Source of the DNA: Candidatus Bathyarchaeota archaeon
Lineage (GTDB): Archaea > Thermoproteota > Bathyarchaeia > Bathyarchaeales > Bathycorpusculaceae
DNA length: 64,000 bases
Direction: 5' to 3'
NCBI GenBank assembly: GCA_026014585.1
Contig: JAOZIA010000024.1
Coordinates: 248,001-312,000 of the forward strand
Each line of letters begins with the position of its first letter. The stretch's first letter is position 1. A program made the translations under genes and the position numbers. This document shows positions 16,390-18,247 of the stretch, one piece after another. The notes under the pieces were generated by a model that saw only the letters and a program-made list of their open reading frames with translations, was not told the origin of the DNA and made no database searches.

Positions 16390-16401
16390 GTTTTATATAT
16401 A
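16390..16401 (+). promoter_or_regulatory. TATA box of the aIF1 gene
   Basis: GTTTTATATATA is a strong archaeal TATA box centred about 34 bases before the aIF1 ATG at 16430, so transcription should begin near 16421 and leave a very short leader. Confidence 0.7.
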
Positions 16402-16429: not shown

Positions 16430-16738
16430 ATGGCTGAAGTTTGTTAGACATGCGGGCTTCCAAAGGATTTATGTGTTTGTGGAGAAATCGAAAAGGAACA
16501 GCAACGTATCCGCATAAGACTTGAAACGCGAAAATTCGGCAGACCAACCACCATTGTTGATGGCATGGATGACAAAAACAGCAATCTGCATAATATAGCT
16601 CAAAAGCTCAAGTCTTTTTGTGCATGCGGCGGAACCAGCAAAAATGGTTTAATCATGCTGCAAGGCGATCACAGAGACCGCATCCGCGAGTTCCTGATAA
16701 AGAGCGGTTATCCACAAGAAAACATTGAACTCCAGTAA
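16430..16738 (+). CDS. Translation initiation factor aIF1 (SUI1) with in-frame TAG at codon 6
   Basis: The frame encodes aIF1, which binds the 30S subunit and helps select the start codon. It reads MAEVC, then TAG (16445-16447), then TCGLPKDLCVCGEIEKEQ, the family's zinc knuckle (CxxC ... CxC), and the SUI1 domain (IRIRLETRKFGRPTTIVDGM, FCACGGTSKNGLIMLQGDH, FLIKSGYPQENIEL) to TAA at 16736. No ATG, GTG or TTG occurs in frame between the TAG and the middle of the SUI1 domain, so a full-length protein needs the TAG to be read through, or the base to be wrong. Aligned aIF1 proteins usually have Pro or another residue here; CAG (Gln) to TAG is one base. TAG is a normal stop for at least six other genes in the window. 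Confidence 0.85.
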
Positions 16739-16768: not shown

Positions 16769-16981
16769 ATGAAAAAGTTAGATGGGTTACGAGACGTATT
16801 CAAGAACACCAAGCATAAGAAAATAACCACTATTTATTGTCCAAAATGCGCCAGCACAAAAATTCACCTCGCACACAGCTTAGATTACTGGTTAACACCT
16901 AAACAGTATCTGTGCGATGAATGCGGCTATCATGGCCCAATTGTTATGGAACTTGAAAAAGAGGAAACAAAAGAAGAATAA
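16769..16981 (+). CDS. Small zinc-ribbon protein
   Basis: A 70-residue protein with one zinc ribbon: YCPKCASTKI (C24, C27) and LCDECGYHGP (C49, C52), separated by a segment with TrpLeuThrPro, and ending in an acidic tail (LEKEETKEE). The N-terminus is basic. It lies 30 bases after aIF1 on the same strand with AAGGTG upstream of the ATG, so the two are probably cotranscribed, which hints at a role in translation or RNA biology. No specific family name is assigned. Confidence 0.75.
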   Translation: MKKLDGLRDVFKNTKHKKITTIYCPKCASTKIHLAHSLDYWLTPKQYLCDECGYHGPIVMELEKEETKEE

Positions 16982-16998: not shown

Positions 16999-17934
16999 TT
17001 AGTCTGGCAGCTCAAGATTTAACTGCTTTTTTAGTGTCTTGTAGCGGTTACGTACTGTAACTTCTGTTACGCCAGCAGCTTCAGCAATGTCTTTTTGGGT
17101 TTTTTTCTCATTATTCTGCAGACATGCAATATAGAGAGCTGCGGCAGCTAAGCCCATGGGGTCTTTTCCCGCGGCAGCACGTTTCCTTCTTGCGTCCCTG
17201 AGAATCTGGATTGCTGCACCCTGTGTTTTTCCTGAAATGCCGGTTTTTTCGGCGATTTTGGAAACGTATGTTAATGGATCTGCAATTGGCATGTGTACTT
17301 CAAGTTCGCGTAGCAGTAACCTGTAGCATCTTGCAACGTCCTTCTTGTCAACAAGGCTGGCTTCTGCAATTTCCCGAAGCGTTCGTGGTGTTCCGCTTCC
17401 TCTGCACGCGGCATATAGAGCTGCGGCAGCGATGGCGGCGATGGATCGTCCGCGAACTAAGCCTTTGTCGAGGGCTTTTCGGTATACGACGGCGGCTTTT
17501 TCTTTGATTGGTGGTGGAATGTAAACTTTGTCTGAGAGCCTGTCTAGTTCTGCCATTGCTTGGGCAAGGTTTCGGTCGATTGATGAGTGGACGCGGCTTC
17601 GGATTTGCCATTTTCGCAGTCGCCACATTTGAAGCCTAGTGGATAAGGGGAGCTTTCGTCCAAATGCGTCTCTGTCCACTTGGCTGATAGCGGTGGATAA
17701 GCCTTTATCGTGTACGGAATAGGATGTGGGTACTCCAACTCTGCTTCTAGAAGCTTTTTCTTCTTGGGTGAATGCGCGCCATTCGGGTCCTTTATCCATC
17801 ATTTGCTCGTATAAGACAAGCCCGCAGTCACCGCAAACTGTTTCTCCTGTATCGTAATCGTGAACTAAGTTGTCACTACCGCACTCTGGACACTTATCAG
17901 CTAGTCGCGGTCTAGGTTGGTCTTTTCTGCTCAA
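16999..17934 (-). CDS. tfb: Transcription initiation factor B (TFB)
   Basis: A full-length archaeal TFIIB, about 311 residues. It recruits RNA polymerase to TBP-bound promoters. The N-terminal zinc ribbon is CPECGSDNL plus CGDCGLVL; the B-reader/linker follows with GPEWRAF; two cyclin repeats run from about residue 120 and 215 (RSIAAIAAAALYAACR; PMGLAAAALYIAC), each ending in a helix-turn-helix, the second with VTEVTVRNRYKTLKK. The TTG at 17934 is preferred because GGAGTGA lies five bases upstream; a GTG at 17943 would overlap that site. It converges with the zinc-ribbon gene. Confidence 0.94.
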   Translation of the reverse strand: MSRKDQPRPRLADKCPECGSDNLVHDYDTGETVCGDCGLVLYEQMMDKGPEWRAFTQEEKASRSRVGVPTSYSVHDKGLSTAISQVDRDAFGRKLPLSTRLQMWRLRKWQIRSRVHSSIDRNLAQAMAELDRLSDKVYIPPPIKEKAAVVYRKALDKGLVRGRSIAAIAAAALYAACRGSGTPRTLREIAEASLVDKKDVARCYRLLLRELEVHMPIADPLTYVSKIAEKTGISGKTQGAAIQILRDARRKRAAAGKDPMGLAAAALYIACLQNNEKKTQKDIAEAAGVTEVTVRNRYKTLKKQLNLELPD

Positions 17935-18247
17935 GTTTTTCACTCCGATTTATAGCGTAGAACCTTCACTTCGCCAAGAGGCAATAAAAACAGTACATAT
18001 GGCCTGCGCAAATCTAACCAAAGTTAATATCTAAGTATTTAAGTTTTGCGGTTTTATTAATCTATTGCACACATACCTTCACAATAACCAATCAAACCAG
18101 CAACTGAACAATGGTAAAATTTGAAAAAAAGTGTATATTGCGGACAAACAAAACGATTTTTGTATAAGGAATGCTTATTAAGAAAAAAAGTGCCCATCTA
18201 AACCTCTAAGCATAAATAAAAGAAACGTTGTGAATAAACAGACACGC
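17935..18247. other. Intergenic region: TFB and tRNA-Gln promoters
   Basis: No protein gene is visible. On the minus strand CTTAAATAC near 18028-18036 could be the TFB TATA box, giving a leader of roughly 70 bases. On the plus strand CATAAATAAA at 18211-18220 is a good TATA box placed for tRNA-Gln, with initiation expected near 18241. Confidence 0.5.

Follow-up and report, generated by a model that had tools for sequence, protein, structure and literature searches.

If the in-frame TAG recorded at codon 6 of the aIF1 gene analyzed here is real, it would have to be asked how an archaeon can manage when its only aIF1 is interrupted at the sixth codon. The window, i.e., the whole 64,000-base stretch of DNA under analysis, comprises bases 248001-312000 of contig C23 in a genome of 2,312,036 bases on 25 contigs (95.59% complete, 1.81% contaminated), which is probably a metagenome-assembled genome. 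On its plus strand at 16430-16738, the sequence and matches to NCBIfam and Pfam identify an aIF1 gene of the SUI1 family with 102 codons and a terminal TAA, broken at codon 6. Positions 16430-16453 read ATG GCT GAA GTT TGT TAG ACA TGC, after which the frame stays open to the TAA at 16736-16738; the translation of the entire frame is MAEVC*TCGLPKDLCVCGEIEKEQQRIRIRLETRKFGRPTTIVDGMDDKNSNLHNIAQKLKSFCACGGTSKNGLIMLQGDHRDRIREFLIKSGYPQENIELQ*. The TAG (16445-16447, plus strand) lies between cysteines C5 and C8 of the zinc knuckle CX2CGLPX3CVC (16442-16480, plus strand; C5, C8, C15, and C17; motif form according to the section of PMC6237735 used here), such that the N-terminus reads MAEVC-TAG-TCGLPKDLCVC… and the assembled record holds no uninterrupted aIF1 frame from the ATG. 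The position of the stop inside the knuckle, as reported in the initial annotation, is thereby confirmed.

The SUI1 core domain downstream of the stop (16496-16714, plus strand; G000:C23:264496-264714) is intact and stop-free, as based on the SUI1 search of the genome and on Pfam. With the TAG entered as Q, the read-through product of 102 residues is matched by NCBIfam NF002096 at residues 1-101 (E 1.1e-41; 141 bits, cut-off 98) and by Pfam SUI1 (E 6.5e-21; 75 bits, cut-off 25.5). According to the list of open reading frames, no in-frame ATG, GTG, or TTG is present between the TAG and 16565, and the longest post-stop ORF with one of these starts (16565-16738, plus strand) encodes 57 amino acids that comprise only part of the SUI1 core. 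It is thus correct that no alternative start would keep the N-terminal domain. MAEVC and TCGLPKDLCVCGEIEKEQQR, the typical flanks of codon 6 in relatives, align in register with the window, and the stretch is therefore not misread intergenic DNA.

Directly 3' of aIF1, the window contains a 70-amino-acid ORF (16769-16981) with a four-cysteine, zinc-ribbon-like pattern, which has no NCBIfam match and has a 66% identical relative after aIF1 in locus L057. A TFB gene (16999-17943, minus strand) is convergent to aIF1, and a TFB match was found near aIF1 in 102 of 109 relative loci.

Codon 6 was compared among relatives from two sources. A scan of genome contigs yielded 147 relative-encoding places, and the best 80 were used as loci; 78 of these are titled Bathyarchaeota/Bathyarchaeia, Bathycorpusculum, Bathyarchaeum, or Nitrososphaerota archaeon, and the remaining two Crenarchaeota or miscellaneous Crenarchaeota group. 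Addition of 29 loci from genomes of the same genus or family (own locus excluded) resulted in 109 loci, 84 of them distinct by sequence; of the genomes with an aIF1 match (52 of 61), codon 6 was read in all but 22. The 84 distinct relatives encode serine (43), proline (35), threonine (5), or lysine (1) at this position, mostly by TCA (34) and CCA (22), followed by TCG (6), ACA (5), CCG (5), and the rarer forms CCT (4), CCC (4), TCT (3), and AAA (1). A stop occurs in none of the 84, i.e., the stop is not conserved. Glutamine (CAG) is equally absent from all 84, so that an origin of the TAG from CAG, as originally suggested, lacks support. Among the codons seen at this position, TCG alone can become TAG by a single base change, C to A; TAG is two bases away from TCA, the commonest codon. 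C-to-A/G-to-T errors are known from oxidative damage during library preparation, and such damage is a possible cause of the change at codon 6.

The coding part of aIF1 is under purifying selection. Synonymous and non-synonymous changes were compared across 34 of the 80 loci (L004-L046 minus nine that are more distant or differ in length). By raw differences, L006 is the nearest relative (59 of 288 bases); it differs from the window gene by 34 synonymous and 10 non-synonymous codons (dN 0.094, dS 1.39), and comparison to the next-nearest relatives yielded a dN of 0.07-0.11 and a dS that is at least 1.7 or saturated and, being this large, imprecise. Eight aIF1 residues deviate from the majority; each of them is present in at least three of the 34 relatives and none is foreign to the family. 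A TATA-box-like sequence is located about 30 bases 5' of the ATG (16392-16401, plus strand), and by eye a similar box (CTTATATA/TTTATATA-like) is found at a similar distance in the upstream regions of six relatives. The low dN as compared to dS and the occurrence of all eight deviating residues in relatives argue against decay, and the sequence bears no sign that aIF1 has been without function over any length of time. Given that the gene is otherwise inconspicuous, with dN far below dS, no foreign residue, and the TATA-like box kept, the stop would be either very young or not real.

The SUI1 search of the 2.31 Mb, 95.6% complete genome returned the window aIF1 as its sole match, which speaks against another copy elsewhere, one of the explanations initially offered. 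One aIF1 per genome was found in 52 of the 61 genomes searched and in 44 of the 45 high-quality ones. The open frame of the window aIF1 spans 96 amino acids as compared with at least 103 in the other genomes with a match (52 of 61).

A scan for split genes by codon usage and coding potential covered 152,362 bases of the genome (the window and fetched loci) and targeted two coding-like segments in the same frame that are parted by one stop, the scan being blind to stops less than 20 codons from the end or start of a segment. Seven of the 25 listed candidates were inspected and represented two-gene junctions, a gene start, or non-coding frames; in these 152 kb, and with the said blindness near gene starts, no other broken gene was thus found among the seven. 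This speaks against an assembly that is poor overall, but a single wrong base would be compatible with it. The only matches from a comparison of window segments with relatives, which is blind to stops in the first few codons, were taken as shadow frames of aIF1 and TFB plus one neighbor pair; the reach of this comparison is small owing to the weak conservation of gene order among the relatives.

The record thus contains a stop that is unique among the relatives examined, in a gene that is otherwise normally constrained, and we consider it probable that this TAG reflects a wrong base in the assembled consensus. Because aIF1 is essential in Haloferax volcanii (PMC3828320, in the portion of that study drawn on here) and single copy in the present genome, a null allele would be difficult to sustain once fixed. 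A consensus error best explains the combination of a singleton stop, a single-copy gene that is essential in another archaeon, and the lack of decay and of conservation of the stop, with no recoding machinery found. The organism itself would then have a sense codon at position 6 of aIF1, probably for serine, the likeliest single error would be TCG read as TAG, and aIF1 would be an ordinary intact gene with a zinc knuckle. Of the CAG-to-TAG sequencing or assembly error proposed in the initial annotation, the error is hence retained as the best option, whereas CAG as its source is abandoned. Against a consensus error, the assembly is not visibly error-ridden in the 152 kb scanned, as judged from the seven inspected candidates. 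Furthermore, since TAG is two bases from TCA, a single-base error requires that the organism has a minority codon, an objection that applies equally to a single real mutation.

Such a mutation, i.e., a real and very recent nonsense change from TCG to TAG in the sampled clone or strain, is unlikely, albeit credible. The gene would be a young null, or the strain a minority variant whose sequence reached the consensus, with an intact allele present elsewhere in the population or within the 4% of the genome that is not covered. A stop in an otherwise intact gene is as expected of a very young event, and a completeness of 95.6% leaves some room for a second copy. However, an allele that is lethal, as the essentiality of aIF1 in H. 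volcanii (PMC3828320) implies, should not become the consensus, and aIF1 occurs once per genome in the genomes counted above. That the TAG is real and tolerated, with the amount of aIF1 simply lowered, appears decidedly unlikely. Possible routes would be near-cognate read-through of UAG or synthesis of a SUI1 core lacking the knuckle from a non-standard start (ATC/ATA). The low dN/dS 3' of the stop is compatible with this explanation, as Belinky et al. describe bacterial in-frame stops with low dN/dS, from which frequent read-through was inferred (PMC7918605, as far as excerpted here). Nor is the zinc knuckle universal: among 744 archaeal aIF1, 64% carry it, and the section of PMC6237735 used here reports that no zinc was detected in aIF1 of P. 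abyssi. Yet the stop occurs in one genome only, while the excerpted part of PMC7918605 demanded orthologous stops in at least two genomes as a safeguard against sequencing error. In addition, standard starts are lacking before 16565, and the knuckle cysteines 3' of the stop are kept, which suggests that the N-terminal domain was constrained until recently. A very improbable scenario is a genuine, leaky amber codon that keeps aIF1 at a low level in this lineage with neither pyrrolysine nor a suppressor tRNA; if true, a start-codon fidelity factor would have its own output limited by inefficient termination at codon 6. Two further mechanisms were rejected, namely programmed frameshifting or bypass, as the same frame continues 3' of the stop and relatives have no stop, and reinitiation at the ATG at 16450, three bases past the TAG, which is in a different frame that ends soon.

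Decoding of the TAG by a dedicated system, i.e., pyrrolysine or an amber-suppressor tRNA such as a serine tRNA with a CTA anticodon, is extremely improbable. In its favor, TAG is the pyrrolysine codon, and a CTA variant of tRNA-Ser(CGA), the type encoded at L158, would serve a serine codon that differs from TAG by one base. However, no PylS match in the genome was over the cut-off (best 23.6 bits, cut-off 178.15); the two weak matches are hisS (HisRS) and aspartate--tRNA(Asn) ligase (AspRS) by NCBIfam. PylD was over the cut-off in none of the 61 genomes, own included, and MtmB had no match at all in the 61 genomes; the positive control Methanosarcina acetivorans was detected in both searches. 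A search of the genome with RF00005 resulted in 48 places at E up to 1, of which 44 were above the Rfam cut-off; the anticodons of nearly all places were named by ARAGORN (introns allowed), and 18 places without a locus were examined with Rfam. No CTA anticodon was present among the RF00005 places of this 95.6% complete genome, in which tRNA-Leu(TAA) and tRNA-Leu(CAA) were likewise not found, and the survey or the assembly therefore misses something. All serine tRNAs found keep the anticodons TGA, CGA, GGA, and GCT. ARAGORN detected no tRNA in 10 places outside the RF00005 list that were fetched by a T-arm pattern search. These results weigh against pyrrolysine insertion as well as suppression by a tRNA, both of which were among the original options.

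TAG is moreover in use as an ordinary stop. Among 67 ORFs hand-picked from the ORF list of the window, aIF1 included, 45 end in TAA, 12 in TAG, and 10 in TGA, and the six genes that the initial annotation had named as terminating in TAG are all present. At L142, TAG also terminates a putative ribosomal protein L1 gene, identified by eye, 12 bases upstream of the start of the next ORF, which was likewise read by eye as L10. The previous assessment that wholesale reassignment of TAG is unlikely is upheld by the window ORFs and this putative L1 gene, and there is no indication of a new genetic code.

The tRNA survey also uncovered several unusual genes. L160 (G000:C5:127180-127333) was called Arg(tct) by ARAGORN, a call that we rejected, as its three exons joined give tRNA-Tyr(GTA); the gene apparently contains one intron in the anticodon stem and a second that follows the anticodon, and together with its intervening sequence is 86-94% identical in ten genomes of the same genus. 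Two tRNAs missed by ARAGORN were recognized by eye, i.e., tRNA-Arg(CCT) with an apparent D-loop intron (L162, G000:C23:528403-528463) and a CAT (Met) tRNA with an intron at an unusual place (L149, G000:C2:143435-143539). L163, L186, L189, and L191 of the same genome are lone tRNA-like 3' halves with T-arm and CCA and no recognizable 5' half; they may be remnants of attachment sites or pieces of split tRNA genes.

If the TAG is a consensus error, as we favor, the locus illustrates that a one-letter assembly fault can resemble recoding of a gene thought essential, and that most of the matter can be settled cheaply by checking the corresponding codon of relatives, the set of tRNAs, and the genes for recoding. 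Methylamine methyltransferases use TAG for pyrrolysine and share with the window gene an in-frame TAG in a conserved archaeal gene. In contrast to these systems, the genome analyzed here has neither PylS nor PylD over the cut-off and no MtmB, and the residue at codon 6 of aIF1 varies among relatives. Greater likeness exists to singleton in-frame stops from sequencing or consensus error, with one substitution-type change in one genome and purifying selection elsewhere in the gene; the excerpted part of PMC7918605 lists sequencing error among four sources of in-frame stops. Different from such cases, the error is here a probable one, and no second case was seen in 152 kb. Apart from its sixth codon, the gene resembles archaeal zinc-knuckle aIF1, e.g., of Methanocaldococcus jannaschii, for which the section of PMC6237735 used here reports measured zinc, in its CX2CGLPX3C-phi-C knuckle, SUI1 core, and length of 102 codons. 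It differs from the zinc-knuckle aIF1 of its relatives in having TAG where the 84 distinct sequences encode serine, proline, threonine, or lysine.
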